From Hyphomicrobiales bacterium (lineage in GTDB: Bacteria > Pseudomonadota > Alphaproteobacteria > Rhizobiales > Methylopilaceae): a DNA stretch of 64,000 bases. Where the stretch lies: contig JALHQA010000001.1 in NCBI GenBank assembly GCA_022842205.1, positions 248,001-312,000 on the forward strand. The letters are read 5' to 3'. Under the pieces are notes generated by a model, which was not told the origin of the DNA, searched no databases, and was given only the letters and a program-made list of their open reading frames with translations. Position 1 is the stretch's first letter. Each line of letters opens with the position of its first letter. The translations under genes were made by a program, and so were the position numbers. Shown here in pieces: positions 16,086-42,554 of this stretch.

Positions 16086-16389
16086 CGGCATCATCCTCCC
16101 TCCCCTGCTTGCTTCGCCGCTCTAAGGCGGAATGCAGGTGGACGTTGAATAATGAATGCAGTTTTGCTCGAAGCGCAACCCCGAAATGCTACGACCGTAG
16201 GGAAAGACCGGGTTTCGAGCGGCGCTGCACCGCAGGATCCGCGCAAGCAACCGTAGTGCCGCGTAAAATGCGGCAAAACGCCCCCGACAATCGGAATGTC
16301 ACAAGCCGATGGGAAGGTTTGCGGGCTTCACCATAAAATTGCCCGCAGCCGCGCGCCTTGCTCGGCGCGTGTCGGCTGAGGAGCCCTCA
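16086..16389. other. Divergent intergenic region dctP / GT29 gene
   Basis: A 304-base gap that must carry the promoter of the TRAP operon and of the rightward GT29 gene. A small perfect hairpin (TGCCGC, seven-base loop, GCGGCA) lies at 16257-16275. No clear operator for the GntR regulator could be singled out by eye. Confidence 0.4.
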
Positions 16390-17769: not shown

Positions 17770-17996
17770 GACAGGCTGGTCGCAATCGCCGCTCGCGATC
17801 ATTGGACTCAAGGCTACATGATGTTGCGGCACGATTGGAACGATCGATCACAATGTGACGCGAATGGAGCGCGCGCGCCCCTTCATTTTCCATATCTCGC
17901 CAATTGCTCGCCCCGATCTCCCGTCAGTTGAAAGCCCGCCAAGGGGGAGCGGGCCGCGCGGTCCGTTCCGGCTGAGAACAGGGGACCATCAACATC

Positions 17997-18488: not shown

Positions 18489-18639
18489 GGAAGCACTTCG
18501 CGCATCGCAGGGCGAAGGTAAGGACAGCGCGCGCAAAACGAAAGCGTCTCGCCGTTCCGCTTCGCTGCCGCGCGCGAGCGCAGATCGCGTCCTGCGTCAC
18601 GGCGGCGATCTGCGGCCGAACGGCACGATCGCGCGGCAG

Positions 18640-19743
18640 CTAGGTGCGGGCGCGCGGAAGAAAAAGATGCACGCTGGTGCCCATGCCGATCTCGCTGTCG
18701 ATCCGCACATGCCCGCCGGACTGGTGAACAAAGCCGTAGATCTGGCTAAGACCCAGTCCGGTTCCCTGGCCTTCGGGCTTGGTGGTGAAGAACGGCTCGA
18801 ACACCTGCGCCAGGGTTTCCCGGCTCATGCCGCAGCCGGTGTCGCGCACGGTCACGCAGACGAACCCGGCGAGGTCGGACGAAGCACCGAAAACGCCGGA
18901 GACGCTGCTCGTCTCGATCGTCAGTATCCCCCGGCCTTCCATGGCGTCCCGCGCGTTGACCGCGAGGTTGAGAAGGGCGACATCGAACTGGTTGGGGTCG
19001 ATCTCGACGGGTTCGAGTTGCGGGGCGAGGAGAGTTTTCAGCTCGATGTCACGGCCCAGAGTTCCCTCGAAGAGATGGGTCAGCGACTCGATCCGGGCGT
19101 TGAGGTCGATGATTTCGGGGGAGAGCGTCTGGCGCCTGGAAAAGGCCAGCAATTGCTGGGTAAGCGCACCGCCGTTCGCAGCGCGAGCGCGCACTTCATC
19201 GATCAGCATGCCGACCCTCGGATTCGTGGGATCGGCGGCGATCTGCTTCTCAAGCAGCTTCAGTCCCGATTCGAATACCGCGAGCAGATTGTTGAAATCG
19301 TGCACGATCCCGGCGGCCAGCCTCCCGACCGCTTCCATCTTCTGCGACTGGCGCTGGCGTTCGTCCGCCGCTCGCTGCGCCGAGACGTCGCGCAGGCTCG
19401 CCAGCAGGGCCGAGTCGCCGTTCCAGCCGATCTCGACCACACGCATTTCAACTTCGGCCGGAGGTTTGTCCGGTCGCCGCACCCGGATTTCCGCAATGTC
19501 GCCTGTAACTACCGGGCGACCCAGCGGGACTTGGAGAAGATTTTCGGTCGGTTGCCCGAAGATCTCGGCAGCCGCGGGGTTGGCATAGAGCACGCTGCCC
19601 GCGAGATCGACGACCAGTATGCCGTCGGCGATGTTCTCGACCAGGCGCTGGAACGAGAGCTGGCTGAATCCCGCAAGCGGTTCATCCTCGCCCGCCCGGG
19701 CGATCTCCGAGGCCGTGCGTGGCCTCTCCCGGGCCGCGGTCAC
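18640..19743 (-). CDS. PAS-domain sensor histidine kinase of the kaiBC operon
   Basis: 367-residue soluble histidine kinase. A PAS domain spans about residues 30-125 (LVENIADGILVVDLAGSVLYANPAA in part), then a HisKA segment with phospho-acceptor His148 in AAGIVHDFNNLLA, an N-box LLNLAVNARDAM, and ATP-lid motifs DTGCGM and GTGLGLSQIYGF. No receiver domain and no transmembrane helix. It overlaps the end of kaiC by four bases, so the kinase is translationally coupled to KaiC and is the likely output partner of the KaiB-KaiC pair. No response-regulator gene is adjacent; the target could be elsewhere. Confidence 0.88.
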   Translation of the reverse strand: MTAARERPRTASEIARAGEDEPLAGFSQLSFQRLVENIADGILVVDLAGSVLYANPAAAEIFGQPTENLLQVPLGRPVVTGDIAEIRVRRPDKPPAEVEMRVVEIGWNGDSALLASLRDVSAQRAADERQRQSQKMEAVGRLAAGIVHDFNNLLAVFESGLKLLEKQIAADPTNPRVGMLIDEVRARAANGGALTQQLLAFSRRQTLSPEIIDLNARIESLTHLFEGTLGRDIELKTLLAPQLEPVEIDPNQFDVALLNLAVNARDAMEGRGILTIETSSVSGVFGASSDLAGFVCVTVRDTGCGMSRETLAQVFEPFFTTKPEGQGTGLGLSQIYGFVHQSGGHVRIDSEIGMGTSVHLFLPRART

Positions 19744-21233
19744 GTTGCGGGGCCCGCTATTGCTGCGTCACCGAATACGTCGGGCGCGCCGCCGAAGGGT
19801 TCTCCCAGATGCATGCCCTTGCTGTCGATCGTGAAGCGGCGGATCTGCTTGTCATGCTCGCTGCCTCGCATCTTCAGCACCATGAGCCCCCGATTCATCA
19901 TGTCGCCTTCCTGGATGTAGCGCAGCAGGATGATCGAGTCGGTCAGCGTGGAGATGTGTTGCTCGCTGGCGCTTTGGCCACCGATCAAGGATTTGTTGGT
20001 TGCCGTGCAGAGTCCCGCGATCTCGCGCTGCTTGATGAATGAGGTCAGGCTGATGAGAAATTCGCGGAATCCCGTCTCGGGCGCGATGCGTTCCAGCGCC
20101 GACAGGCTGTCGATCGCCAGTCGGTCGGGTTTGAACTCCTCGACCAGTTCCCGGATCGTCAGAAGATGGTCCGGCAGACTCTGCGCCTCGGGATAGAGTG
20201 AAATGACCTTGAGCTGTCCATCGGCTTCCATGGCCTCGAAATCGACGCCCCAGCCGCGGGCATTGCGGAATAACTGGCCTCGGCTTTCCTCATAGCCGAC
20301 AAGCAGCGCCCGTTCACCAGCGGCCACGCCACCAGCCAGGAAGTTCGTCACCAGCAGGGTCTTGCCTGTGCCGGTGGCGCCGCTCACCAGGGTGACGCTG
20401 TCGCGGAACAGGCCGCCGCTCGTCATGCGGTCGAGTTCGGCATTGCCGCTGGTCACGCGCTTGGTGCTCGACTGCTGTTCGAGCCGCAGGGACGAAAGAG
20501 GTACCGCGACGAGCCCGTGGTTCTCGACCAGCGTGATCGGCACCTCGCCTTCGACGTGGCGGCTGCCGCGCATTTTCAAGACCTCGATGGTCCGGCGTCG
20601 ACGCTCCTTGTCGAGCGCGTTGCGCAGGATGACCACGTTGTCGGCAACAAACTCCTCAATGCGATGGCGGGAAATCTCGCCATATTCGCTGTTGCGCTCG
20701 GCCGTCATCAAGACTGTCAGGCCCTCCTTCTTGAGCGCCGCGGCGATGCGCAACAGCTCACGGCGCACCGTCGTCGGATCGGCGACAAAATGATCGAAAA
20801 GCTGCGTCAACGAATCCAGCACGAGGCGTTTGGCCTTGGCGGCCTTTACCGCATGGAGAATGCGGGCAAGAAGCCCGGCAAGATCGAAATCGCCAACCAC
20901 CAGTTCGTCGCGATCTTTCGGGCTCGCGTCCACGAAGACGAGCTGGTTCTGCTCGCGCCAGCGCCGGATGTTCCAACCAAAGCTCGCCATGTTGACTTCG
21001 ATCTCGTCGGGAGACTCCTCGAACGTGACGAATACGCCGGACTCCCCGAGATCGGTGATGCCGTGGGCCAGAAATTGCGTCGCGAACACGGTCTTGCCGC
21101 TGCCGGGCGTTCCGCCAACGATCGTCGTGCGCCCGCGCGGCAGTCCACCCATCACGAGGTCGTCGAATGCCTCGATGCCCGTCTTCACTCGTTCGAGTAC
21201 AGGATCGACGGCGCTTTCCTCTGTTGCGATCAT
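19740..21233 (-). CDS. kaiC: KaiC-family double-domain RecA-like ATPase
   Basis: 497-residue protein with two KaiC (RecA-like) domains. CI has Walker A GTPGSGKT (41-48) and the catalytic EE pair at 72-73; CII has GATGTGKT (285-292) and EE at 315-316. The autophosphorylation pair of cyanobacterial KaiC (Ser431/Thr432) is matched by Ser428/Thr429 in EQHISTLTDS, so an autokinase cycle is plausible. The C-terminal tail differs from the cyanobacterial KaiA-binding tail and no kaiA is present. Overlaps kaiB upstream and the PAS kinase downstream by four bases each. Such loci in alphaproteobacteria have been linked to timing or stress adaptation; the function here is inferred. Confidence 0.95.
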   Translation of the reverse strand: MIATEESAVDPVLERVKTGIEAFDDLVMGGLPRGRTTIVGGTPGSGKTVFATQFLAHGITDLGESGVFVTFEESPDEIEVNMASFGWNIRRWREQNQLVFVDASPKDRDELVVGDFDLAGLLARILHAVKAAKAKRLVLDSLTQLFDHFVADPTTVRRELLRIAAALKKEGLTVLMTAERNSEYGEISRHRIEEFVADNVVILRNALDKERRRRTIEVLKMRGSRHVEGEVPITLVENHGLVAVPLSSLRLEQQSSTKRVTSGNAELDRMTSGGLFRDSVTLVSGATGTGKTLLVTNFLAGGVAAGERALLVGYEESRGQLFRNARGWGVDFEAMEADGQLKVISLYPEAQSLPDHLLTIRELVEEFKPDRLAIDSLSALERIAPETGFREFLISLTSFIKQREIAGLCTATNKSLIGGQSASEQHISTLTDSIILLRYIQEGDMMNRGLMVLKMRGSEHDKQIRRFTIDSKGMHLGEPFGGAPDVFGDAAIAGPAT

Positions 21234-21541
21234 GCGGTTGTGTCCTTGTTGCTGCAGCCGAAATATTCGAGAACGTGAGCCGTGTTGCTGATGTCGCCGA
21301 TCAGACGGCGTGGCGGCGTCACGGTCTCGTCGGAAAGCGTGGGCGTGGCGAGAATTCCCGCAGCCTCCGCCTCGGCCGGCCGCTCCAGGATGTCGATGAT
21401 TTCGATGTTGATCGGCTCAGCCGCCGCTTCGATGATGCGCTTGCGGGCGTCGAGCGCCCGGCGTGCCGCCGACGCATCGCCGGCTATGTACAGCCGCAGC
21501 ACGAGGAGAGGTTTTCCTTGGGTCCGATCACTCGTCCTCAT
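21230..21541 (-). CDS. kaiB: KaiB-family protein
   Basis: 103-residue thioredoxin-like/fold-switching protein that binds the KaiC CI ring in clock systems. Conserved elements are VLRLYIAGDASAARRAL, INIEIIDILERPAEAE and the hallmark ILATPTL followed by PPRRLIGDISNT. First gene of the kaiB-kaiC-kinase operon, overlapping kaiC by four bases; the 261-base upstream gap is shared with a divergent Crp/Fnr regulator gene that may control it. Confidence 0.93.
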   Translation of the reverse strand: MRTSDRTQGKPLLVLRLYIAGDASAARRALDARKRIIEAAAEPINIEIIDILERPAEAEAAGILATPTLSDETVTPPRRLIGDISNTAHVLEYFGCSNKDTTA

Positions 21542-21802
21542 GCGTCACGCCCACCTTCCGAAAAACTTGGGGTGGCGTGCTTGGAGCGCCCCGCCAGGAA
21601 ATCAGTGTCGGCAGTGCCGGCATTGCTTGTCTCTCAAGGCGGCAAGTGTCTTCGCCCGGGAGTCGATGCCATCGCTCGCGCTCGATGAGGCTGATCAGCC
21701 CCTGTGTTGCCTTGTAGACAGAGATGCGGGATCGGTCTGCCCACTAGTGACCATTTCTCCGCCTCGCGCGTTATAAAGCGCGAATAAATACGAGGTATGT
21801 GA

Positions 21803-22585
21803 ATGGATGCCCGAAGCCCCAATGGAGATCTTGTCGGCAATAATCTTTTGCGCGCGTTGCGAACCGAAGACTGGGCGATCCTGCAACCGATGCTGGAGGA
21901 TTGGTCGGCGCCGACGGGAACGCTGCTCCACGATCCGGGCGACACGGTCCGCCACGCCTATTTCCCGTGCGGATCGAGCCTGATTTCCTATCTGGTCGTG
22001 CTGGGGGACGGGCGGGCGATCGAGACCGCGCTCATCGGGCGCGAGGGCGCCATCGGCGGCATCGTCAGCCACGGACGGCTCCCGGCCTTTTCCCGGGCCG
22101 AGGTGCAACTGGGCGGCTCTTTCTGGCGGATCGATCTGCACGATCTCGAAGCAGCGAAGTCGCGCTCGATCACACTGCGTTTTTTGTTCGCACGCTATGC
22201 CGATTGCCTGATGGCGCAGGTCTTCCAGTCCGTCGCCTGCAACGCCGCCCATTCAATCGAGCAGCGGACGGCGAAATGGCTGCTCGCCGCACTTGAAAGA
22301 ACCGGCGCGACCGATGTCGCGCTCACGCAGGAGCAATTGTCGGCGATGCTGGGCGTGGGACGCAGCTATCTCAGTCGAGTGATCCAGGACCTGAAAACGA
22401 AAGGGGTCATCGAGACGCGGCGCGGACGCATTGCCGTCAGCCATGTCGAGGGCCTTCGCTCGCTCGCCTGCGAATGCAATCCCTGTGTCAGCCGCCATTT
22501 CGACGACGTTCTGAAAGGCGTTTACCCCGCCGAGGAAAACGGGGTGGCGGCCAAGGAAAGCACGCCGCGCCGATCGTCGGATTGA
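21803..22585 (+). CDS. Crp/Fnr-family transcriptional regulator
   Basis: 260-residue regulator: cyclic-nucleotide-binding-like beta barrel at residues about 25-140 (HDPGDTVRHAYFPCGSSLIS, the effector pocket GREGAIGGIVSHGR) and a C-terminal winged helix with LTQEQLSAMLGVGRSYLSRV and KTKGVIETRRGRIAV. There is no Fnr-type N-terminal cysteine cluster, but the C-terminal tail has CECNPC near residue 219. The effector is unknown. Divergent from kaiB, so it may regulate the kai operon, itself, or both. Its downstream flank begins the possible metal island. Confidence 0.88.
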   Translation: MDARSPNGDLVGNNLLRALRTEDWAILQPMLEDWSAPTGTLLHDPGDTVRHAYFPCGSSLISYLVVLGDGRAIETALIGREGAIGGIVSHGRLPAFSRAEVQLGGSFWRIDLHDLEAAKSRSITLRFLFARYADCLMAQVFQSVACNAAHSIEQRTAKWLLAALERTGATDVALTQEQLSAMLGVGRSYLSRVIQDLKTKGVIETRRGRIAVSHVEGLRSLACECNPCVSRHFDDVLKGVYPAEENGVAAKESTPRRSSD

Positions 22586-22759
22586 GCGGACCAGATTTCA
22601 TCCGAAGGCGGAGAATCTAGATCAGGCCGCGGCGCGAGAGCGAGAGCGGCAAGGCAGGTTGCGGCGTGCCAAGGCGGTGCGCTGCGCATGCACGCGACCG
22701 ACGATGCCGTGCAAGGCACGGCTTCTCAGTCCCATCGGACTGGGGCGGGCTATTAGGGA

Positions 22760-22773
22760 AAAATGGCGCGCCC
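22760..22773. repeat. Candidate attachment-site repeat (left)
   Basis: AAAATGGCGCGCCC, identical to 32841-32854, where it spans the CCA end and acceptor stem of the tRNA-Arg(ACG) gene plus four downstream A residues. Direct repeats of a tRNA 3' end commonly bound integrated elements. At 14 bases it is shorter than a usual att core, and no integrase gene is present, so the element would be old or decayed. Confidence 0.45.
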
Positions 22774-22794
22774 TAGCAGATGAAGATGAGAACT

Positions 22795-22817
22795 GGAGCA
22801 TCAGCTTCCCAAGCTGA
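22795..22817 (+). other. tRNA-like D/anticodon-arm fragment
   Basis: GGAGCA followed by TCAGC, seven-base loop TTCCCAA, GCTGA: this reads like the end of a D-arm and the complete anticodon arm of a tRNA-Gly(CCC). No matching T-arm or acceptor stem follows, so it is not a functional tRNA gene as read. It may be a tRNA remnant next to the candidate att repeat. Confidence 0.35.
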
Positions 22818-23089
22818 CTATCCGCAGATCCAGCGCCTTCAACCCGTAGAGGCAGGTGTGCTGGCGTCGCCATCCGATAAAAGAGTGGCGGACTGCTGCC
22901 GACTGCAGTGGTTCGGCGGGCGTAGAGCCTTCTGGAACTAGGTTTTCGGCTTGGTAGGACATCAGGGTGAGGTCAAGAATCAGTCCTGCTTAACTGTGAT
23001 GGTACGATTCGACACAATTTGGCCGTTTCTCCTACCTAAGCGCGACTTTCGAGGATACGCTGCAACCTGAATATGGGTGTCTTGTCGGC

Positions 23090-23497
23090 ATGCGCTTGTC
23101 TGTGTTCCTGGCCCGCGTCGTTCCCATCGTGATCGTGATGATCGCGGTGTACGCGATGCCGTCGGCGGCTTTGGCGCACCCTGGGCACGAGAGCAGCGGC
23201 ACGGCGGATGCGTACCGAGCCAGCACCGAAACAGAAGTTTCGCTCTCCGGCGCGTCCGCCAAAGAACCGGCTTTAGAAGAAACCGGCGAACGGGCCTCTG
23301 CCAAGTCGACCGAGAAGGTCCCCTGCAATGGGGGTTGTTGTTCGGCGGGCTCGTCCTGTTGCGCGCCTGCGGTCGAAAATCCTACCGCCTATCTCACTAT
23401 TGCAGACCGCCGCACCGCTATTGTAAGGGCACCTACTAGCGTTTTCAGTGGCGTCGATCCGAACCTCTTCCGCCGCCCGCCCAAATTCTTCGTCTGA
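23090..23497 (+). CDS. Small secreted Cys/His-bearing protein of metal cluster
   Basis: 135-residue protein of unknown function. Residues 1-29 form a signal peptide (MRLSVFLARVVPIVIVMIAV core, cleavage after ALA); the mature N-terminus begins HPGHESSG. A five-cysteine cluster CNGGCCSAGSSCC is at residues 79-91, a plausible soft-metal site, and the C-terminus VDPNLFRRPPKFFV is positively charged. It precedes the RND adaptor gene by 66 bases on the same strand, so a periplasmic metal-sensing or metal-chaperone role is likely but inferred. I do not recognise a named family. Confidence 0.6.
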   Translation: MRLSVFLARVVPIVIVMIAVYAMPSAALAHPGHESSGTADAYRASTETEVSLSGASAKEPALEETGERASAKSTEKVPCNGGCCSAGSSCCAPAVENPTAYLTIADRRTAIVRAPTSVFSGVDPNLFRRPPKFFV

Positions 23498-23563
23498 TCC
23501 GGCGCGCCCGCGCGCGCTCCAGCGGCCGCATGGCCGTCCGAGACCAGTTCGAAGGATTACTCA

Positions 23564-25255
23564 ATGCATCCGGTTTTCAGATCCGCGCTCTACGCGGTGC
23601 TCTTCACGATATCCGTTCCCGCGGCTATCGAGGCACATGAGGGGCATGTTCACAGCGGCGACGCCCCTCCGCCGGTCACCGAGGTCGCGAGTGCCTCGCC
23701 CCGGGTCGAAGCGACTTCGTCAGCCCTTGAAATGGTCGCGCTTCCGCAGAACGGCGCTATCCAGATATTCCTGGACCGGTTCGAAACAAACGAACCGGTA
23801 AGCGGTGCCTCGATCATCGCCGACACCGCGGCTGGTTCTCTTGAGGCCAAGCCCTTCGAAGAAGGCACCTACCTTCTGCAAGGAGACTGGACAGCTTCGG
23901 CCGGCACACACGACGTGATACTGACTGTGACTGTCGGCGATCTCGTTGAAATCTTTCCGGTCCAGATTGCCGTTCCGACCGCGGCCGTTCCCGAAGCTGC
24001 GCCAACCGCCGGCTTGACCTTGGCAAGCATCGGCGGCCAGTTGCCTGACAAGCGTTCCTGGCTGTTCGTACTCCTCGGTGCCATTACGGGCGTAGCGATC
24101 ATGATGCTGCGGAGCCGCCCGAGGGCGGTTATTGCCGTCCTTCTGGCAGGCTCCATGCTTTTCTTCGTCAGCTACGCGTCCGCACACGAGGGGCACGTCC
24201 ATGCCGACGATAAGCCGGCGGCCGATGCCAAGGCTCCCTCACCGGCTGGTCGTGCCCGCGATATCGCACAGCGGCTTCCGGATGGGACGTTGTTCGTTCC
24301 CAAGCCTACCCAGCGCATTCTTGCGATCCGCACCTTAATTGCCGAACCGCGAGCTCACAGCAGAAGTATTGAACTCCCCGGGCGCGTCATCCCTGATCCG
24401 AATGCCAGCGGCTACGTGCAGGCCTCCGTCGGTGGCCGCCTGTCGCCGCCGGCGCAGGGATTCCCACGCCTCGGCTCGGTGGTAAAGGCGGGCGACATTC
24501 TTGCTTACGTGACACCGCCTGTGGGCTCCAAGGATGCGTCTGACATGCGCCAGAGCCTCGGCGAGCTCGACCAGCAAATCAGCATTGTCGAGCGGCGCGT
24601 CGGACGCTTCGAAAAACTTGCGGCATCGGGGGCGGTCACACAGACCCAGTTGACCGAAGCCCGCCTCGAACTCGAAGGACTGAAGGAACGCCGCGTCGCA
24701 CTGCAAACCGCCCGGGTAGAGCAGGAACCACTCGTTGCGCCGGTCGATGGGATCATCGCGGATGCCAGCGCGGTCGCAGGGCAAATGGCCGAGCCAAGTG
24801 CGATTGTATTCCACATCGTCAATCCGGACCGGCTTTGGGTTGAGGCGCTTAGCTTTGAAGCGGTTTCAGAAACCCAATCCGCTTCTGCCTCTTTTGCGGA
24901 CGGCCAAAGCATCGAGCTCGCATATCAAGGGGCCGGGCTTGCGGACCGGAACCAGTCGGTGCCGGTACACTTCGAAATCCGCGGCGAGCCCCCCCGCGCG
25001 CGCATCGGTCAGTTCGTCACGGTTCTTGCCTCGACGGATACAATAACCGAGGGCGTTGCCTTGCCGCGCACGAGCGTGGTTCGCGCGGCAAATGGGCAGG
25101 ACTTCGTTTTCGAGCACACATCGCCGGAACGGTTCGTCGCGCGAGAGGTACGTGTCGAGCCGCTCGACGGACAGAATGTTCTTGTCGCTGCCGGCGTGAC
25201 GAAATCCAGCCGGATCGTGACGCAAGGCGCTGAACTCCTCAACCAGGTCCGCTGA
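23564..25255 (+). CDS. Heavy-metal RND efflux adaptor with extra N-terminal membrane/metal domain
   Basis: 563-residue periplasmic adaptor (membrane fusion protein, CusB/CzcB group) linking the RND pump to an outer-membrane channel. The adaptor proper occupies about residues 230-563, with RSIELPGRVIPDPN, a lipoyl/hairpin segment GSVVKAGDILAYV and PVDGIIADASAVAGQMAE. Before it is an unusual module: a signal peptide, HEGHVH (25-30), an Ig/YtkA-like beta domain (about 58-137), two hydrophobic helices (166-182, 188-206) and a second HEGHVH (208-213). Typical relatives start near the second HEGHVH at about 380-420 residues. It may be a fusion of a YtkA-like metal protein with the adaptor. Stop lies 12 bases before the pump gene. 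Confidence 0.85.
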   Translation: MHPVFRSALYAVLFTISVPAAIEAHEGHVHSGDAPPPVTEVASASPRVEATSSALEMVALPQNGAIQIFLDRFETNEPVSGASIIADTAAGSLEAKPFEEGTYLLQGDWTASAGTHDVILTVTVGDLVEIFPVQIAVPTAAVPEAAPTAGLTLASIGGQLPDKRSWLFVLLGAITGVAIMMLRSRPRAVIAVLLAGSMLFFVSYASAHEGHVHADDKPAADAKAPSPAGRARDIAQRLPDGTLFVPKPTQRILAIRTLIAEPRAHSRSIELPGRVIPDPNASGYVQASVGGRLSPPAQGFPRLGSVVKAGDILAYVTPPVGSKDASDMRQSLGELDQQISIVERRVGRFEKLAASGAVTQTQLTEARLELEGLKERRVALQTARVEQEPLVAPVDGIIADASAVAGQMAEPSAIVFHIVNPDRLWVEALSFEAVSETQSASASFADGQSIELAYQGAGLADRNQSVPVHFEIRGEPPRARIGQFVTVLASTDTITEGVALPRTSVVRAANGQDFVFEHTSPERFVAREVRVEPLDGQNVLVAAGVTKSSRIVTQGAELLNQVR

Positions 25256-25267
25256 GGAGAGCCGCCG

Positions 25268-28200
25268 ATGTTTACTTTCCTCGTCACGCAATCCCTGAAG
25301 AACCGCCTGCTCGTTCTCGCGCTCGCCGGGGTGCTTGTCGTCTACGGCGCATATACGGCGACCAAGCTCCCGGTCGATGTGTTTCCGGATCTCAACCGCC
25401 CAACCGTGACAATCATGACGGAGTCCGAGGGCCTTGCGCCGCCCGAGGTCGAACAACTGGTCAGCTATCCGATCGAAACTCAGATGAATGGTCTGCCCGG
25501 CGTCAGTCGGGTCAGATCGGTGTCGGGCGTCGGGCTTTCGATCGTGTACGTCGAGTTCGACTGGAATACCGACATTTACAGGAACCGCCAGCAGGTTGCG
25601 GAGCGGCTGACGCTGGTGCGCGAACAGCTTCCTCCCAACACGTCGCCGCAGATGGGCCCGATCAGTTCGATCATGGGCCAGATCATGCTGATTGCGGTTT
25701 CCGGAGAAAACGCAACTCCGATGGAATTGCGCGAACTCGCTGACTTCACTATCCGGCCGCGTCTGCTCACGATTCCCGGCGTGGCGCAAGTTATCCCGAT
25801 CGGTGGCGAAGTTCGTCAGTTCCGCATTGCGCCTCAGCCGCCGGCGCTGCGTGCGCTGGGCCTCACCTATGACCAGATCGAAAAATCGCTGGCGCAGTTC
25901 GGCGTCAATACGGGCGGAGGCTTCACGGACCAGTATTCGCGGGAATACCTCATCCGCAATATCGGCCGCACTACGAGTCTCGACGATCTGCGCAGCCTCG
26001 CCGTCGCCACTGTCGACGGGAAGCCGGTATACCTACACCAGGTCGCGGTGGTCGAATTCGGCCCCAAGACCAAGCGCGGCGATGCCGGCTATATGGGCAA
26101 GCCCGCCGTCGTGGTGTCCATCGAAAAGCAGCCGAACGTCGATACCGTCGCGCTGACGGGCCTCATCGAATCCGCCTTGACCGATCTGGCACCGAGCTTG
26201 CCGCAAGGCGTGAAGGCCGATCAAATTTTGTTTCGTCAGGCCGATTTCATCGAGAACTCGATCTCCAACGTCCAGACGGTTTTGCTGGAGGCGATCGTCG
26301 TCGTCGCGATCGTTTTGTTCGCCTTCCTGCTGAACGTTCGGACAACTGCGATATCGCTGACGGCGATCCCTGTCTCAATCCTGGCGACAGCGATCATCTT
26401 TCACTTCGCTGGGCTTGGCATAAACACAATGACGCTCGGCGGCCTTGCGATTGCTATCGGCGAACTCGTCGACGATGCCGTCGTCGACGTCGAAAACATC
26501 TTCCGAAGGCTCAGGGAGAACCGCGAACTCGGCAATCCACGCCCAATCTTCGATGTCGTCGTTTCGGCTTCCCAGGAAGTGCGTTCCGGCATCGTCTACG
26601 CGACGATGATCATCGTGCTGGTCTTCGTGCCTCTGTTCGCGCTGTCGGGAATTGAAGGCAGGCTCTTTGCGCCACTCGGCCAAGCCTACATCATTTCGAT
26701 CCTCGCCAGCCTGCTCGTTTCGATCACGCTGACTCCCGTCATGGCCTATTACATGTTGCCGGGCCTGAAGCGCCTGAGCGAGCACGAGAGCGGCCTTGTG
26801 CGCATTCTGAAGCGCGGCAACCGGAAGCTCCTCGATCGCGCCTTCGCCCGGCCGCGGCTCTTGATGACGTCTGTCGCTCTTGCCGTCGTGGTCGCCGGCA
26901 TCGCCGCGCTGTTTCTGCCGCGCGCGTTCCTGCCGCCTTTCAACGAAGGCACTTTCACGATCAACATGCTGTTCAACCCGGGCATCTCGCTGGCAGAATC
27001 CAACCGCGTAGGCGCCATCGCCGAGCGCATGATCCTCGATGTTCCGGAGGTCACAACGGTCGGACGGCGCACCGGCCGCGCTGAGCTCGATGAGCATGCC
27101 GAAGGGGTTCATTCGTCGGAGATCGAGGTCGACCTTAAGCCGGACGGCCGGCCGAAAGCAGAAATCATCGCCGACATCCGCTCACGTCTCGCTGTACTGC
27201 CGATATCTGCAAATGTCGGCCAGCCGATCTCTCACCGCCTGGATCATATGCTGTCCGGCGTGCGGGCCGAGATCGCGCTGAAGATTTTCGGCGAAGACCT
27301 CGACACGCTGCGGACCCTGGCCGAGGACATGCGGGCGCGTCTGGCGAAGATCCCGGGCATTGCCGATCTGCAAATCGAAAAGCAGGTGCGCATCCCGCAG
27401 CTTGAAATCCAGATCGATTATACGCGCGCGGCTCTCTACGGCGTCCAGCCCGCGGCGATCGTCGAGCAACTCAGTCGCCTCTCCAATGGCCAGGTGGTTT
27501 CGCGCGTGGCCGACGGGAACCGGCGCTTCGATGTTGTCATGCGTCTGCCGGAACACATGCGCACGACGCAGCGCCTGGGGGACCTTCTAATCGAAACGCC
27601 CAGCGGCTGGATACCGGCGCGGCAGGTCGCCAACATTACTGAGACGGACGGTCCCAATCAGATCCTGCGCGAGAACTCGCGCCGCCGCGTCGTTGTTCTT
27701 GCGAACAGTGACGGCCAAACGGACATGGCCGAGATCATCGCCGCTATTCGCCGTGAAATCGCGGCCACACCGCTGCCAGCGGGCTTCTTTGCAAGCCTCG
27801 AAGGCACATTCCAGGCCCAGGAAGAAGCGAGCCGCACGATCGGCGGATTGTCACTGCTTTCGCTATCGATGATTTTCATGATCCTCTACAGCCGCTACCG
27901 CTCGTCGGTTCTGGCGCTGATCATCATGGGCAGCGTGCCGCTTGCGCTGATAGGTTCGGTCGCTGCGCTTGCCTTGGCCGGGCAGCCGCTCTCGGTCGCC
28001 TCGATGATCGGCTTCATAACACTGACCGGTATTTCGGCTCGAAACGGCATCCTGAAAATCAGTCACTACATCAACCTGTCTCTGAATGAAGGCATGCCCT
28101 TCGGCAAAGAATTGGTCGTCCGCGGGAGTCTTGAGCGGCTCACGCCGGTTCTGATGACAGCGCTTTCCGCGGGGGTTGCCCTCGTGCCGCTGCTGATCGG

Positions 28201-28396
28201 CGCCGACGCGCCCGGCAAGGAGATCCTGCACCCGGTCGCTGTCACGATTTTCGGCGGACTGATCAGCGCCACGCTGCTCGATACGTTTCTGACCCCGGTT
28301 CTCTTCCTGCGCTACGGGCAAGCACCTCTCGAACGCCTGCGTGCCGCACGTTTGGCGGAGCGGACACCCGACACCGCCCCCGCGGAAGCCTTCTGA
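25268..28396 (+). CDS. Heavy-metal efflux RND transporter (CusA/CzcA family)
   Basis: 1042-residue proton-driven inner-membrane pump of the HME-RND group, exporting metal ions with the upstream adaptor. N-terminal [40 protein letters not shown] and [18 protein letters not shown] are family hallmarks. The helix 4 proton-relay region reads [20 protein letters not shown] with paired Asp. Twelve helices in two halves are apparent and the length matches the family. The metal cannot be fixed from these residues; neighbours (DUF305, DUF411, HupE, His-rich proteins) point to copper/silver or nickel/cobalt. No outer-membrane TolC-like gene is adjacent. Confidence 0.92.
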
Positions 28397-28413
28397 TCAA
28401 GATGGAGTACCCC

Positions 28414-28779
28414 ATGAGAAAGTTTCTGGCCTTTGCCCTCCTCGCCTTCGTTACGTCGACAGCCGTCGACGCGCATGAAAGCGCAGCAGGGCCGAACGGA
28501 GGTCCGTCAATCGATACCGGCGACTTCCACATCGAAGCAGTAGCGAATGGCACCGAGCTGGCCGTATACATACGGGACGCCGCAGACAAACCTGTGCCGA
28601 CAGAAGGCTTCAAAGGTACGGCGATCTTCGTGGTCGACGGCAAGCCGCAGAGGATTGTACTGGCGCCCGCCGGAGAGAACCGCCTTTCAGGCACATCCGC
28701 CACGCCGCTCGCGGCTCCAAAAGGCGCCGTCCAGATTTCCACGTCGGACGGCAAATCCATCCAGGGCAAGTTCCAGTGA
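28414..28779 (+). CDS. Small secreted protein, FixH/YtkA-like
   Basis: 121-residue exported protein: signal peptide (MRKFLAFALLAFVTSTAVDA), then mature HESAAGPNGGPSIDTGDFHIE and a beta-rich domain with LAVYIRDAADKPVPTEGF. The layout is that of small YtkA/FixH-like periplasmic proteins often found with metal efflux genes, and it resembles the beta module fused to the RND adaptor. ATG 28414 is preferred over an ATG 12 bases earlier because that one overlaps the GGAG that serves as ribosome-binding site. Eighteen bases after the pump gene, so the same transcript. Confidence 0.7.
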   Translation: MRKFLAFALLAFVTSTAVDAHESAAGPNGGPSIDTGDFHIEAVANGTELAVYIRDAADKPVPTEGFKGTAIFVVDGKPQRIVLAPAGENRLSGTSATPLAAPKGAVQISTSDGKSIQGKFQ

Positions 28780-28854
28780 GGACGGGCCCGGAAGCGGCCG
28801 CTCCGGAGCGAGCCGCATTAATGCAAGCGTCAACAACACACAGAGGATACCCTA

Positions 28855-29205
28855 ATGACCAATCTCAGAACCGGACTGGCTATTGTGACGCTGGCGGCGG
28901 CCATCGCCTCGACTTCCGCCTTGGCGCAAATGCACAAAAGCGATGGCGAGATGAATGCCGGGAAAGCCTACATGGGCGCTCACCAAAAGATGATGACCGA
29001 CATGAATGGCATGAAACCAACCGGCGATGCCGACAAGGATTTCGCAATGATGATGATCCCCCATCATCAGGGCGCGATCGACATGGCCGAGGTCGAGCTC
29101 AAACACGGCAAGGATCCGGAGCTCAGGAAGATGGCCCAGAAAATCATCGACGATCAGAAGAAGGAAATCGCTGATTTCAAGAAATGGCTGTCTCAGAACA
29201 AGTAA
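28855..29205 (+). CDS. DUF305-family periplasmic protein
   Basis: 116-residue exported helical protein of the DUF305/ferritin-like group. After a signal peptide (cleavage after ALA, residue 24) it carries Met/His-rich MHKSDGEMNAGKAYMG and the hallmark DFAMMMIPHHQGAIDMAEV, whose paired His and Met residues are candidate metal ligands. DUF305 proteins are common in copper-resistance loci. It follows the RND genes on the same strand with a 75-base gap; probably binds metal in the periplasm. No enzymatic function is implied. Confidence 0.88.
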   Translation: MTNLRTGLAIVTLAAAIASTSALAQMHKSDGEMNAGKAYMGAHQKMMTDMNGMKPTGDADKDFAMMMIPHHQGAIDMAEVELKHGKDPELRKMAQKIIDDQKKEIADFKKWLSQNK

Positions 29206-29369
29206 TGACAGCGAAAAACGTTGGCTCCGGCGGAGTTGACGATTGGCACCGACCGGCGTAGCGCGGGCGCGATAAGCTGCGCTCGTGATCTGCCGGCCGG
29301 GAGATCAGGAAAGGCTCGTAAGGTTCACTGCGGGAGGCGCGTACGCCTCCGCCTCTTACGGAGAAAGAC

Positions 29370-29855
29370 ATGTCCGAATTCCATCTCACAAGGCGTTCGG
29401 TGCTGACACTGGTCAGCATGGCGTCGCTGGCTCCTGCTCTCCCGGCGCTTGCGCAGAGTCGCCCGCTGGTGACTGTCTACAAGGATCCTTCTTGCGGCTG
29501 CTGCGGCGCATGGGTCAAACACATCGCAGCTGCCGGGTTTCCCACGGCGGTTCAGGAAACGGCTGATATGACCGCTCTCAAGGCAAGGCTCGGCGTGCCG
29601 ATGACACTTGCCTCGTGCCATACCGCCAAGGTCGGAAGCTACCTGTTGGAGGGGCACGTGCCGGCGGCGGCCTTGGAGAAGCTGCTGACTGAGAACCCCG
29701 ATGCAATGGGCCTCGCAGTTCCAGGCATGCCCGTTGGATCACCCGGGATGGAAGTCGCAGGAACGCCGCCCGAAAGATACGACGTGTTGCTGTTCGCCAA
29801 GGACAGGCCTCCTAGGCCGTACATGCGCTTCAATGGGGGCGCTGAAATCCAATAG
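29370..29855 (+). CDS. DUF411-family metal-binding protein
   Basis: 161-residue exported protein with a Tat-like signal (TRRSVLTLVSMASLAPALPA) and a thioredoxin-like DUF411 domain. The metal/redox motif is VYKDPSCGCCGAWVKH, followed by TLASCHTAKVGSYLLEGHVP. DUF411 proteins occur with copper and silver resistance genes. It ends the rightward part of the cluster; the 206-base gap to the converging 30062 gene holds a long inverted repeat at about 30022-30053 (GTGCGGCCC / GGGCCGCAC) that can end transcription from either side. Confidence 0.87.
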   Translation: MSEFHLTRRSVLTLVSMASLAPALPALAQSRPLVTVYKDPSCGCCGAWVKHIAAAGFPTAVQETADMTALKARLGVPMTLASCHTAKVGSYLLEGHVPAAALEKLLTENPDAMGLAVPGMPVGSPGMEVAGTPPERYDVLLFAKDRPPRPYMRFNGGAEIQ

Positions 29856-30021
29856 CTGCCGATCGCGCGCCGTTGTCGAGATAAGGCACCACGAAGGCGA
29901 AGAGCCGCGGTGAAGCCGGCCGGTACGGAAATTCGCTGACTTTTGCCGCGCGCACCCTTGCACAGCCAACTTCAGGGCCCTACGCGACCACCTTCCGGAG
30001 AGGGTCTTCCATGCGGGATGG

Positions 30022-30053
30022 CGTGCGGCCCTACCATGAGAGGTGGGCCGCAC
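30022..30053. terminator. Inverted repeat between converging metal-cluster genes
   Basis: GTGCGGCCC ... GGGCCGCAC with a short internal loop lies between the DUF411 gene (+) and the membrane-anchor gene (-). No T-run follows on either strand, so efficiency is uncertain; position suggests a bidirectional transcript end. Confidence 0.4.
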
Positions 30054-30061
30054 ACCACGAC

Positions 30062-30712
30062 TCACATCACACGTTTTACTTCTGCGTAGTCGCCGTTTGT
30101 CTTGAGGGTCACAGTCACGTCAGCTTTCCCACGATTGCGCCAGAACCAGCCATGCGCCCCCGTGAACGCGGCTTCCAGAACGCCTTCGGCACCCGGCACC
30201 GCACGCCCCTTCTTGTAACTCTTCGACTCGCCCGCATCGCCGTCGGCATGGAGGTCGAAGTTGACAACGCCGCCGTCCACTGCCCAGGAGAAGTTGGCCT
30301 TGGCGCCCTTCGTCATTACGAGTTTGATCTCGGCGCCTTCACCAGGTTTCAGAGTTACCTTTACCTCGTCTGCCCGGCCAGCAGGCTGAGCATGTGCCGG
30401 ACTGACGAAAAGTTCGGCCAAAATGCGCCCAGCGATGCTGGACTGCCGATCCGCCGGCGCCGATGCCGGAGCCGTCTTCTGTTCATCCAGAAGCCGGTCC
30501 CGTTCGGCCTCCTCGGCGAGCTGAGACTTGATCTCCCCCATCTCCGTCAGGCCGATGGCGCGTCCTATTCCGGTGGGGTCGATGGCATACTCGGCGGGCA
30601 GAACCACGGTCACGAGAATCGCTGTTGCCGCGATGATCGCGATCACCGTGGATCGGATAAGCTGTCCCGAGGTCGGCAGTTCCGCGCGGGAAGGAATGTC
30701 GGAATTGTACAT
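30062..30712 (-). CDS. Membrane-anchored periplasmic protein of metal cluster
   Basis: 216-residue protein with one transmembrane helix (LIRSTVIAIIAATAILVTVVLPAEY, about residues 19-40, read in two parts), a charged helical linker, a second weakly hydrophobic segment ending AHAQPAG, and a C-terminal beta domain with VKVTLKPGEGAEIKLVMTKG. Proteins of this shape, often called transmembrane anchor proteins, accompany HupE and RND metal genes in alphaproteobacteria. Function unknown. It follows the HupE gene by 15 bases on the same strand, so they are co-transcribed. Confidence 0.65.
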   Translation of the reverse strand: MYNSDIPSRAELPTSGQLIRSTVIAIIAATAILVTVVLPAEYAIDPTGIGRAIGLTEMGEIKSQLAEEAERDRLLDEQKTAPASAPADRQSSIAGRILAELFVSPAHAQPAGRADEVKVTLKPGEGAEIKLVMTKGAKANFSWAVDGGVVNFDLHADGDAGESKSYKKGRAVPGAEGVLEAAFTGAHGWFWRNRGKADVTVTLKTNGDYAEVKRVM

Positions 30713-30727
30713 TGGAATTCTCCTTTG

Positions 30728-31459
30728 TTACGACACGAAATAGCCGGTCAGCTGATACCCGATCAGCACGAATCCAGCTGTCATGACAATTGCGTTAGCT
30801 GTGTATGCGTGGCGCCAGAAGCTGGCGGTACGCCGCCAATAGCTCATGACGATAAGGATCGCGGCCAATGCCAGGAGCTGGCCGATCTCCACGCCTACGT
30901 TGAAGGCCAGAAGATTTGGCACAAGCCCGTCTGGCGAAATATCGTATTCGATGATTTTCGTGGACAGGCCGAAGCCGTGGAAGAACCCGAATATCAAAGT
31001 CGCTGCTTTGGTATTCGGCTGGAAGCCAAACCACCGCTGGAAAGCGCCCATATTGTCGAGCGCTTTGTAAACGACCGACAGGCCGATTATCGCATCGATG
31101 ATGTAGCTGTTGATCCCGACGTTGAAATACACGCCCAGAAGCATCGTCGTGGAATGCCCGAGGGCGAAGAGACTCACATAAAGCCCGATGTGCTTCAGCC
31201 GGTACAGGAAGAAGATCACACCGAAAAGGAACAGTATGTGGTCGTATCCCGTCACCATGTGTTTGGCGCCGAGATAGATGAAGGGAAAAATATTTACGCC
31301 CGTAATCTCCTGGATGTAGCCCTTGTCGCCCTCGGCAACGGCGTGTGCCATTGCCTCAATGCCGAGAAGGATTAGACCCAGGCTTGTCGCAAGCGCCAAA
31401 AGAAGCACCCGCGTACATGCGGAAGCGGACGCCCCCTTTTGAAGGGAGACTCGTTTCAT
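30728..31459 (-). CDS. HupE/UreJ-family membrane protein
   Basis: 243-residue inner-membrane protein of the HupE/UreJ_2 group with about six or seven helices. The family motif region is FIYLGAKHMVTGYDHILFLFG, with conserved His/Asp in HMVTGYDH, followed by LFALGHSTTMLLGVYF and FGFFHGFGLSTKII. HupE/UreJ proteins are implicated in nickel or cobalt uptake, but this longer type is frequent in heavy-metal clusters. Co-transcribed with the anchor protein downstream. Metal specificity is not settled by the sequence. Confidence 0.82.
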   Translation of the reverse strand: MKRVSLQKGASASACTRVLLLALATSLGLILLGIEAMAHAVAEGDKGYIQEITGVNIFPFIYLGAKHMVTGYDHILFLFGVIFFLYRLKHIGLYVSLFALGHSTTMLLGVYFNVGINSYIIDAIIGLSVVYKALDNMGAFQRWFGFQPNTKAATLIFGFFHGFGLSTKIIEYDISPDGLVPNLLAFNVGVEIGQLLALAAILIVMSYWRRTASFWRHAYTANAIVMTAGFVLIGYQLTGYFVS

Positions 31460-31509
31460 GGAAGTTCCAATCTTCGCTGATGGAAATAAGCCGCCGGAAG
31501 CGGCTCGGC

Positions 31510-31851
31510 TCAGGCAACGAAGCAGAACCGTGGGGGGCGGTGGATGCGCGAGGGAGCGTTACGTATCTGACCGACGGCCAGCGCTGAAATCCAGTTGCGG
31601 ACCACTACGACGCCTGCGCTCTCATATGATGCGGGCATGCATGGAATCTCGTGCGAATGGTCGGCGAACTTCTGATCGTGACCGGAGGTTCCATCATGGT
31701 CATCGTGGTCGTGGCCATGTGCGTGATTGTGATCGTGGATCAGTTGGCCTTGGCCTTCAATGGAGCTGGTGATGTGGTCGTGAGCCCGCCCAGCGCCGAT
31801 GGGCGCCAGCAGCGTTCCCAATATCATGACGACGGCGATGATGACTCGCAT
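31510..31851 (-). CDS. Small His/Asp-rich secreted protein
   Basis: 113-residue predicted protein: signal peptide (MRVIIAVVMILGTLLAPIGAG), then a histidine/aspartate-rich stretch HDHNHAHGHDHDDHDG and HSHEIPCMPASYES, likely to chelate divalent metal in the periplasm. No named family recognised. It lies 50 bases upstream of the HupE gene on the same strand, so it probably opens that leftward operon. Composition bias makes homology calls unreliable, but the signal peptide plus context support a real gene. Confidence 0.6.
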   Translation of the reverse strand: MRVIIAVVMILGTLLAPIGAGRAHDHITSSIEGQGQLIHDHNHAHGHDHDDHDGTSGHDQKFADHSHEIPCMPASYESAGVVVVRNWISALAVGQIRNAPSRIHRPPRFCFVA

Positions 31852-31936
31852 GGCTGCTAGCCGACCTTAGTTCGCCGCGATCCGGCGGCACATTAGTCGA
31901 AAGGGGCTGGCCTGTCCCGGTGGATCTCAATGAGCG

Positions 31937-32776
31937 TTAACGGGGGGCCAGGCTGCGCACTGTTGACGAGGCTTTCTTCTGCAAAGCTTCGAGCATTCCA
32001 CTTTTGCTGAATTGTGCCGGATAGGTGACGGTATAGGGCTCCAGAAAGTCCGCGAGACGCCGAAAAATCCCCTTGGCCGTATTTGCCCGCGACTTCGAAA
32101 TAGCGCGGCCGATGTGCACCAGGAATGTGCCGTCATCACGACGGATGGTTACGACAGGAAGCAGAGCCGCACTGTTTGCCTGCGAAAGCTCGATCGCGTC
32201 GGCACCCAATGGTTTGTCCCTGCTTTCCCGGGACATCAGGATGATCCCGTTGGCGCGGAGTATTTCGGCCGCCTTTCGCAAGGCCGATGAACCCGCGAAT
32301 CGGCCGGCAAGATAGCGATCCTCGATCTCGTTCCGGAGCGCTTCTGTCTTGGCCGTATGCCACGGCTTTTCGAAGTTGTTCTTATCCTCTCCCGGCAGGA
32401 GATTTCCACGAATCCCCTTGTCGGCCAATGCCGCCAAGGGGATCGTCGGTGCGTATGACGTAGGCACAATCCACAGAACGGCGCCCGTACCGTTCTTCAA
32501 CTCGTCTTTCACCAGATCATGCCCGACGACGACGATGTTCAGATTCCCGGCAAACGGCCCTGCCATGGCCCTGAGGATCAAAGCTTCGTGAAAGCAGCAC
32601 GCGTCGCCTTCGGCCGTGACGCCATCCTGGGACCGGTCGTCGGCCAGAGCGCTTGTAACTGCACGGCTTAGACGCAACCGCGTTTGGTCATGAAGCTGCC
32701 ATCCGAGCGAAATGATCGCAGGGAGACAGCGGGTGATTGCACGATGGATCAGTTGCCCGCGTTTGCTTGCCGACAA
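31937..32776 (-). CDS. Diverged LpxL-like acyltransferase family protein
   Basis: 279-residue protein from a TTG start at 32776 with GGAGG seven bases upstream. The middle and C-terminal parts follow the lysophospholipid/lipid A acyltransferase (LpxL/HtrB) plan: AVLWIVPTSYAPTIPLAALA in place of the usual acyltransferase block, then a LRKAAEILRANGIILMS segment and ANSAALLPVVTIRRDDGTFLVHIG. The canonical catalytic HxxxxD/E is not evident, so activity is doubtful. No membrane helix is convincing. It lies between the metal genes and the tRNA-Arg gene, and may be part of the same inserted segment. Confidence 0.5.
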   Translation of the reverse strand: MSASKRGQLIHRAITRCLPAIISLGWQLHDQTRLRLSRAVTSALADDRSQDGVTAEGDACCFHEALILRAMAGPFAGNLNIVVVGHDLVKDELKNGTGAVLWIVPTSYAPTIPLAALADKGIRGNLLPGEDKNNFEKPWHTAKTEALRNEIEDRYLAGRFAGSSALRKAAEILRANGIILMSRESRDKPLGADAIELSQANSAALLPVVTIRRDDGTFLVHIGRAISKSRANTAKGIFRRLADFLEPYTVTYPAQFSKSGMLEALQKKASSTVRSLAPR

Positions 32777-32840
32777 AACCGGCCTCCGATTTTCGGAAGA
32801 ACTGCTGCCGCTTCGGACGCTGGCGCCGGTTTAAGAAAGG

Positions 32841-32854
32841 AAAATGGCGCGCCC
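32841..32854. repeat. Candidate attachment-site repeat (right, in tRNA-Arg)
   Basis: AAAATGGCGCGCCC, overlapping the CCA end and acceptor strand of tRNA-Arg(ACG); identical to 22760-22773 in the same orientation. Together they bracket about 10.1 kb of metal-related genes. Confidence 0.45.
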
Positions 32855-32921
32855 GAAAGGATTCGAACCTCTGACCCTCAGATTCGTAGTCTGATGCTCT
32901 ATCCAGCTGAGCTACGGGCGC
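32845..32921 (-). tRNA. tRNA-Arg (anticodon ACG)
   Basis: 77-base gene including an encoded CCA. The acceptor stem is GCGCCCG (32921-32915) paired to CGGGCGC, then discriminator G and CCA. The D-arm GCTCAGCTGGATAGAGC, anticodon stem TCAGA / TCTGA around loop CTACGAA, and T-arm with GGTTCGAATCC are all canonical. ACG is edited to ICG by TadA to read most CGN Arg codons. Its 3' end faces the metal region, and a 14-base copy of that end lies at 22760. Confidence 0.97.
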
Positions 32922-33012: not shown

Positions 33013-34467
33013 TCAGGCGATGGATTTCTGGGCCGCCCGCTCGCGCAGGTCGATGACCCGGTCCGGGATCGTGAAACGGAAGGCCGCGCCGATCGACCCC
33101 TCCACAAGCTGGATCTCGCCGCCATGGGCGCGGACCAGCTCGGACGCGATGGCGAGGCCAAGGCCCGTGCCGCCCGGCTTGGTCGAGCCCTGGAAGGCGG
33201 CGAACAGATGCTCCCTCGCCTTGTCGGAGACGCCCGGACCGGTGTCGGACACTTCCAGCATGACGACTGCCCCCTCGCGCCGCCCGACGATGCGGATCTG
33301 GTCGCGGGCCGGGTCGAGTTCGCGGCCCTGCCCTTCGAGCGCCTGTTTGGCGTTGCGGCCGAGATTGAGCAGCACGCGGAACAGCTGATCGGGGTCGGCA
33401 TCCACCGTCAGCCCGCGTTCGACCGCCTCGGTCCAGCCGATTCCGGTATTTTGCCTGAGACCCAGGGCATCGCGCATTTCGTGGATCAGGTCGGCTACTT
33501 CGACCGGCCTGCGCTGCGGAGCGGCTTCGCGAGCCGCGCCATAGTTCAGCGTCGTCGTGCAATAGGCCACCGCGCGTTCCAGCGTGGACACGAGCTTGCC
33601 CGACAGCCGCTTCACCGCCGGATCGGGCGAATCCGCGAGCCTTTCAGAGGCAAGCTGCGCCGCGGCCAGAAGATTGCGCAGGTCGTGGTTGATCTTAGAC
33701 ACCGCGAGGCCGAGCGCCGCGAGATGCCCCTTGCTCTGCAACTGGCCGTGCAGCTCGGTCTGCATCGCCGCGAGCTCTTCCTCCGCGACCCCGATTTCAT
33801 CATTACTGCCCGAGGGGACGATGATGCCTTCGGCGTTTTCCGGGTCGCGGCCGAAGGCCACCATCCGGCCCGTGAGGCGGCGCACGGGGCGCACGATCAT
33901 ATGGTCCATGAGCACATAGAGAAGGACGCCCGCCAGCGCCGCGACGGCGAGCGACATGCCGAGCATGTTTCGCGAGAACCGCAGCAGCGATGCGCGGAGC
34001 GGTTTTTCCTCGACCAGGACTTCGATGAACTCGCCCCCTCTCGGCGCGTCGCCGACAAGGCGCATCACGCCCCCGCCGTCCGAGAATATCACCCCGAAGG
34101 CGTTGCGGACCGCTGTGGTGCCGAGCGGCTCGCGCAGGTCGACGTCGCGGGCAATCGCCGGCGGCGTATCGGAAGCGGCCAGCAGGCGCCGGGCCTCGCC
34201 GGTCTTCAGCACGATCATCCGGGCGCCGACGCTGTCCAGCAGCCGCCGGGCCAGCGTTTCCGGCACCATGCCTTGGGGAGCGGCGTCGAGCACGAGGGCC
34301 ACCGAATGGGCACGGCCGATGCGATCGTTCAGCCAGCGCTCGTAAAATGTAGCAAGTGCAGGCACATAGACGAGCACAACCGCCAGCATGACGAAAAGGC
34401 TCGTCAGCTTCAGCAGCTTCGCCGAAAGCCCCCGGCGCACCGCGGGGCGCATGCCGCCCTGGTCCAT
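33013..34467 (-). CDS. Membrane-bound sensor histidine kinase (orphan)
   Basis: 484-residue sensor kinase: transmembrane helix 1 at about residues 20-42, periplasmic sensor of about 130 residues, helix 2 at about 172-190, a HAMP-like MIVRPVRRLTGRMVAFGRDP segment, dimerisation helix with phospho-acceptor His in SKINHDLRNLLAAAQ, N-box RVLLNLGRNAKQAL, DTGPGV and GTGLGLAIASELV. No receiver domain and no response-regulator gene adjacent. The signal is unknown. It is divergent from rpmH, whose promoter lies in the 217-base gap. Confidence 0.88.
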   Translation of the reverse strand: MDQGGMRPAVRRGLSAKLLKLTSLFVMLAVVLVYVPALATFYERWLNDRIGRAHSVALVLDAAPQGMVPETLARRLLDSVGARMIVLKTGEARRLLAASDTPPAIARDVDLREPLGTTAVRNAFGVIFSDGGGVMRLVGDAPRGGEFIEVLVEEKPLRASLLRFSRNMLGMSLAVAALAGVLLYVLMDHMIVRPVRRLTGRMVAFGRDPENAEGIIVPSGSNDEIGVAEEELAAMQTELHGQLQSKGHLAALGLAVSKINHDLRNLLAAAQLASERLADSPDPAVKRLSGKLVSTLERAVAYCTTTLNYGAAREAAPQRRPVEVADLIHEMRDALGLRQNTGIGWTEAVERGLTVDADPDQLFRVLLNLGRNAKQALEGQGRELDPARDQIRIVGRREGAVVMLEVSDTGPGVSDKAREHLFAAFQGSTKPGGTGLGLAIASELVRAHGGEIQLVEGSIGAAFRFTIPDRVIDLRERAAQKSIA

Positions 34468-42553: not shown

Positions 42554-42554
42554 C

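Follow-up and report, generated by a model that had tools for sequence, protein, structure and literature searches.

Gene content of the locus

The locus studied here is the interval between dxs and the tRNA-Arg(ACG) gene in a Hyphomicrobiales bacterium of the family Methylopilaceae (GCA_022842205.1; hereafter G000, 2,781,792 bases in 17 contigs). It lies within a stretch of 64,000 nucleotides (nt; G000:C1:248001-312000), the whole of which was analysed and is referred to as the window. The interval carried flippase, transporter and kai-crp genes and, at its tRNA end, a block of metal-related genes (Table 1). The original prediction, made from the sequence alone, had taken this block as a possible 10.1 kilobase (kb) element integrated at the tRNA gene between two copies of the 14-mer AAAATGGCGCGCCC. 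Comparison with three congeners (G001, G002 and G003; four genus members with G000 included) outlined a longer variable interval reaching from dxs to the tRNA. The tRNA genes were called with ARAGORN, and open reading frames (ORFs) were simple calls made in this analysis, some of which are possibly wrong.

Conserved flanks and unrelated contents

Collinearity by blastn with all three congeners ended at window positions 2743-2747, just upstream of dxs, and restarted at 32828 (G003) or 32842 (G001 and G002). All three were also collinear with G000 over the 20 kb that precede the window and over the segment from the histidine kinase gene through yidC to ~37.1 kb; in each, dxs stood on the same side of the tRNA as here, its protein 88-94% identical. 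Since collinearity reached dxs in every congener, the variable interval is 30.1 kb rather than 10.1 kb long, and position 22760, which had been proposed as the left boundary, falls inside this larger unit. The distance from dxs to the tRNA was 30,096 bases in G000, 6,050 in G001, 2,879 in G002 and 13,613 in G003. No pairwise blastn match between the intervals of the four genomes had an E value under 0.02; tblastn at E up to 0.001 gave a single similarity, the flippase/GNAT pair of G000 and G001 (24-27%, opposite strands). The same flanks thus enclosed unrelated contents in the congeners, the pattern by which a variable hotspot is recognised.

The tRNA adjoined the kinase gene in 16 of 17 family relatives. 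When the 10 kb downstream of the tRNA were compared in 17 of the 18 family genomes (G006 excluded), ten genomes, G000 included, shared at most 500 aligned bases with any other. Same-strand alignments longer than 500 bases were restricted to the trio G013/G009/G008, the pair G011/G016, and G001 with G002, whose shared 3.9 kb fits the dxs side. In G006 (contig C10; L172, L173), the kinase and tRNA-Arg(ACG) genes were 144 kb apart with the tRNA orientation reversed, and an integrase match lay ~4 kb from the kinase. An inversion between congeners was seen past the collinear kinase-yidC segment of the window, where the region ~40300-52300 aligned in reverse order to G001 and G003; the G002 contig ended too early to be informative.

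Table 1. Features of the dxs to tRNA-Arg(ACG) interval and its flanks (window coordinates).
Feature	Position	Strand	Basis or remark
dxs (1-deoxy-D-xylulose-5-phosphate synthase)	807..2720	-	PF13292, 399.8 bits; left conserved flank
Variable interval	2746..32827		~30.1 kb; collinearity break points and interval lengths
GNAT-type acyltransferase and polysaccharide flippase genes	2819..5790	+	PF13480, PF01943; two overlapping ORF calls
ABC transporter, allophanate-hydrolase C domain, GntR block	7070..11063		PF00005, PF09084, PF21986, FCD/GntR
TRAP transporter, CoA-transferase, enoyl-CoA hydratase block	11103..16094	-	PF06808, PF03480, PF02515, PF00378
Histidine kinase, KaiC, KaiB (minus) and Crp-like regulator (plus)	18640..22585		PF02518, PF06745, PF07689, PF13545
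Distal 14-mer copy	22760..22773	+	Intergenic stretch, predicted to fold well
CopL-like small protein (weak)	23090..23497	+	NF033807, 18.9 bits, below cut-off of 40
RND periplasmic adaptor (CzcB-like)	23564..25255	+	PF16576 and PF13437 above cut-off
CusA/CzcA heavy-metal RND pump	25268..28396	+	TIGR00914, 759.3 bits, cut-off of 701.45 passed
Small protein of RND operon	28402..28779	+	No family match; homologues at same place in G180, G036, G279
CopM-type metallochaperone (DUF305)	28855..29205	+	NF049983, 102 bits, cut-off of 90 passed; PF03713
DUF411 protein	29370..29855	+	PF04214, 88.3 bits, above Pfam cut-off
HupE-module partner protein	30062..30712	-	No family above cut-off
HupE/UreJ-type metal transporter	30728..31459	-	PF13795, 181.5 bits, cut-off of 24.5 passed
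His-rich small protein of HupE module	31510..31851	-	No Pfam match
Diverged Lip_A_acyltrans-like gene	31937..32776	-	Matches in 5/397 order genomes, G000 included
Proximal 14-mer copy	32841..32854	+	Last 10 nt of the tRNA and 4 spacer bases
tRNA-Arg(ACG)	32845..32921	-	ARAGORN; sole tRNA in window
Histidine kinase	33013..34467	-	PF02518; right conserved flank

The metal block

Family scans bore out the predicted gene content, metal-related genes plus one diverged acyltransferase-like gene, and by our ORF calls the block was nearly all coding. From general family knowledge, the RND operon is presumed to export copper- or silver-type ions, and HupE is taken to move nickel or cobalt. No outer-membrane channel family was found among the scanned block proteins, leaving the operon short of a complete tripartite RND set. 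The CopL-like protein had a 29% relative at the same place in the operon of G279, and the CzcB-like adaptor scored 81.9 bits against TIGR01730, below the cut-off of 94.9. The partner protein adjoined HupE in G180, G015, G206 and, as two ORF pieces, G017; relatives of the His-rich small protein (28-29%) were encoded beside HupE in G180 and G002. A second CopM-like stretch (G000:C1:228847-229080; 74% DNA identity to the CopM gene of the block) was located upstream of the window, in a region collinear with the congeners.

The block (22774-32840) was GC-poorer than its flanks, as had been predicted: GC was 0.603, compared with 0.634 on the left (2746-22600) and 0.641 on the right (32922-53000). 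The codon profile agreed, pooled GC at third codon positions (GC3) being 0.716 in the block (10 ORFs), 0.797 on the left (19 ORFs) and 0.774 on the right (18 ORFs); Mann-Whitney tests gave p = 0.0003 against the left ORFs and p = 0.007 against the right ORFs pooled with those of 55700-64000. Its composition hence differs from that of the host, as expected of an island, and the block looks acquired. Elsewhere in the window, 53400-55700 was strongly AT-richer (GC 0.514, GC3 0.57) and is likely a second acquired patch; it carried one gene for a DUF5677 protein (54267-55346) and one without a name (53510-54481), with a DUF559 gene (52589-52849) nearby.

The acyltransferase-like gene, which is rare in the order and nearest to the tRNA, was considered as a diverged integrase and rejected. 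It had no Pfam match itself; of three homologues scanned, that of G001 passed the cut-off of Lip_A_acyltrans (PF03279), another fell just short and the third gave no match. No plasmid homologue of this gene was found. A 33% paralogue was present elsewhere in the genome (C4:86884).

Metal modules in other genomes and plasmids

Some match to block DNA was detected in 238 of 397 order genomes, G000 included, in a search that scored only one or two candidate places per genome. The best non-self match lay in the RND genes and extended for 4.1 kb at 74%. The gene order CopL-like, CzcB, CzcA, small protein and DUF305 recurred in G279, where a DUF411 gene was close by. In G180, the RND and HupE modules were ~10 kb or less apart and arranged otherwise, and the HupE, partner and His-rich genes stood side by side as in G000. 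The HupE module occurred without the RND operon in G017, G015 and G206 (15-18 kb stretches read). As the two modules are found apart elsewhere, the block consists of two known modules that can be separated and does not correspond to any single recognised element. In the congeners, matches were obtained to CopM, the small protein and HupE, and none to the RND pump at the places scored. A putative transporter-like gene lay beside the HupE module in G180, G017, G015 and G206, whereas none was called beside the HupE gene of G000.

Plasmid records matching the block numbered 623, of which 19, all outside the matches listed, reached at least 80% identity in their best place. No record could be accepted as a close donor, since none covered 80% of the query; the top match listed had 57% coverage at 71.4%. 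Methylobacterium plasmid records (matches H2 and H3) had pump, adaptor, small protein and DUF305 annotated together, as here. The CusA/CzcA-type operons of the plasmids and G279 shared ~71-74% DNA identity with the block over the longest matches, and thus no close donor was found. A literature search for DUF411 together with DUF305 and copper retrieved nothing relevant.

Contents left of the metal block

Relatives of the flippase and GNAT genes were identified as a distant pair beside dxs, on the other strand, in G001, and as a 62% flippase elsewhere in G002. Each of the three congeners had relatives of the ABC block at another place, with neighbours that failed to align from one congener to another, and the TRAP block was on another contig in G002. 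The kai-crp DNA (19740-22759) had matches in 12 of 61 genomes, G000 included, and none in the three congeners. Its only long match within the family was in G011 (77%), on a contig other than that of its tRNA-Arg gene, and the 18 kb kai locus of G011 contained no tRNA. The Crp protein was matched at E 1e-40 or better in 60 of 397 order genomes, G000 included, and in none of the three congeners. Among these 60, 11 crp loci other than that of the window were inspected (L180-L190, ~1.5 kb on each side), and no tRNA of any kind lay beside crp in any of the 11. An empty site joining the kai-crp side to the tRNA, whose absence the original prediction had named beforehand as refuting, was found in none of the genomes checked.

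The 14-mer pair

Both copies of the 14-mer were exact, the proximal one covering the 3' end of the tRNA with 10 nt inside the gene, as originally noted. With one mismatch it occurred at 4 places in the genome and with two mismatches at 48; its 10-base core TGGCGCGCCC occurred 25 times. Maximal same-strand direct repeats of 14 nt or longer numbered 57 in the window, the longest having 20 nt; among them was another 14-mer that touched this tRNA at its 5' end (32915/63498). When 31,980 window positions were treated as mock tRNA ends, 241 (0.75%) had a repeat of this kind no more than 30 kb downstream. The pair is therefore unusual for a single preselected tRNA and much less so after many tRNAs and windows have been read, and it exceeds chance only weakly. 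Beyond the repeat, only 6 of the next 36 bases were identical between the distal copy and the tRNA. The 151-base stretch around the distal copy (22640-22790) folded better than all 200 shuffles (z = -3.78). The agreement of the two copies is most likely accidental and involves the palindrome GGCGCGCC.

Had an element inserted at the 14-mer, the native flank of the tRNA would be expected next to the distal copy. Compared with the flank of G003, the 20 bases adjoining the proximal copy scored 7, which 12 of 5000 shuffles equalled, and the 20 bases adjoining the distal copy scored 1 (349/5000). Against G001, the proximal flank scored 2 (134/5000) and the distal flank -1 (524/5000). A native-like flank would thus be retained at the tRNA and not at the distal copy, and the test leans weakly against insertion at the 14-mer; it does no more than lean because the sequence is short and T-rich and six comparisons were made.

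Inverted repeats of a transposon were also considered. Pairs at 22796/32878 (22 nt, 77%) and 22731/31783 (21 nt, 81%) lay near the block ends, but pairs of equal quality were common among the 25 longest inspected of the 96 reported in 22400-33100, and this candidate was rejected.

Integrase islands at the same tRNA

Six-frame profile searches with PF00589 found matches in all 18 family genomes, five of them (E <= 0.001) in G000, and none in the window. The statement that no integrase remains was thereby upheld, and no decayed tyrosine recombinase appeared in or near the block. Integrase-bearing elements at tRNA-Arg(ACG) were found in two other genomes. In G015 (contig C10, locus L055), the tRNA end was repeated exactly over 46 nt at a distance of 10,200 bases; an integrase gene ended at the tRNA, and the stretch between the copies also held prohead protease and capsid genes, making this 10.2 kb island prophage-like. 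In G027, from another family, a 54-nt partial tRNA copy was located 58.5 kb away with an integrase between. Within the loci of 16 relatives (13.5-20 kb each), apart from the 46-nt tail repeat of G015, a 12-nt match was seen in G017 and 17-nt matches of the other end of the tRNA to a second tRNA-Arg in G013, G009 and G008; 11 of the 16 loci had no tRNA repeat of at least 12 nt.

Islands and prophages integrated at tRNA genes by tyrosine recombinases resemble the present locus in their position on the tRNA 3' side, variable content, lower GC and a distant short repeat of the tRNA end. The islands of G015 and G027, however, have 46- and 54-nt repeats and an integrase, whereas the window has a 14-nt repeat and no integrase match, and, unlike them, it has a conserved left neighbour 20 kb beyond the repeat.

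Interpretation

Taken together, these comparisons make it likely that the dxs/tRNA-Arg(ACG) interval is a genus-level hotspot, here a ~30 kb mosaic with an ordinary metal block at its tRNA end, and that the 14-mer pair is a chance match. The reading rests on direct observations, namely collinear flanks, unrelated contents, recurrence of modules and lower GC. Hotspots of horizontal transfer that lie between conserved core genes and carry no recognisable mobility genes are a known category; they likewise have conserved flanks and unrelated contents, and no difference from them was found among the four genus genomes compared. Acquired or relocated DNA would accumulate between dxs and tRNA-Arg(ACG), and the interval of G000 comprises several modules, most with relatives elsewhere in other genomes. 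Its tRNA-side third consists of a heavy-metal RND efflux operon (CopL-like, CzcB, CzcA, small protein, CopM/DUF305 and DUF411) and a HupE-type unit. The modules probably arrived separately, most likely by recombination between the conserved flanks or by insertions whose machinery has since been lost. Of the integrated element proposed earlier, an acquired-looking block on the 3' side of a tRNA whose downstream DNA is highly variable stands; its ends at the two 14-mers are unsupported, and an element so bounded is unlikely.

A study of S. meliloti describes repeats of 12-98 bp for 37 prophages and 51 islands located at tRNA genes, one hotspot whose attachment (att) sites comprise 17-18 tRNA bases and 10 spacer bases, and an integrase gene in each island studied there (PMC11476347); a review gives 16-20 bp as the common size (PMC2704930). 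Several points weigh against the hotspot reading. A dinucleotide model expects 0.0007 copies of AAAATGGCGCGCCC per 30 kb on one strand, and the genome has no third exact copy. The metal genes form a compact single block whose left end lies near the distal repeat, and 14 bp, though short for an att site, may fall within the published range, the minimum in S. meliloti being 12 bp (PMC11476347). The flank comparison with G002 slightly favoured the distal copy (-2, 840/5000; proximal -3, 1139/5000), and the whole flank test concerns 20 T-rich bases, each result being one of six comparisons. The comparison covers only three congeners, with ~70-88% DNA identity to G000 in the conserved flanks, so that recent steps within the interval are below resolution.

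An alternative is a single element, the 10.1 kb block having been inserted at the tRNA 3' end by a tyrosine integrase, with a 14-bp att repeat, inside an older island, and the integrase then lost. The exact match of the two 14-mers, which stand at the two ends in the correct orientation and have no further exact copy in the genome, the use of the same tRNA by integrase-bearing elements in G015 and G027, the S. meliloti repeats, some of which join a tRNA end to spacer, and the lower GC all agree with such an event. We nevertheless regard it as unlikely: the nearly fully coding block lies in a window with no integrase match, no empty site was found and the kai-crp DNA had no match in any of the three congeners, the distal copy loses similarity to the tRNA beyond its 10 bases where G015 and G027 keep 46 and 54 nt, the review's usual size is larger, and the flank at the tRNA appears native-like, the reverse of what insertion predicts. 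A variant in which the block is a cargo-only element lacking its own recombinase, inserted by an integrase acting in trans on 10 tRNA and 4 spacer bases and nested in an older island, is given very little credence. Growth of the interval by intrachromosomal rearrangement of blocks found elsewhere in congeners, with little recent horizontal transfer, would explain why the ABC and TRAP blocks occupy other places there and would accord with the right-flank inversion relative to G001 and G003 from ~40.3 kb. It appears quite improbable, because the ABC block is surrounded by unrelated neighbours in G001, G002 and G003, which implies that this block is itself mobile, and because the RND pump was unmatched in the congeners at the one or two places scored per genome and the GC3 of the block is lower.

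A plausible tRNA-bounded island was thus reshaped by comparison with congeners into an interval three times longer with another left edge. One tRNA gene here offers a contrast between integrase islands, with repeats of 46-54 nt, and a short repeat that looks like theirs, and the dxs/tRNA-Arg interval provides a usable marker hotspot for the genus.

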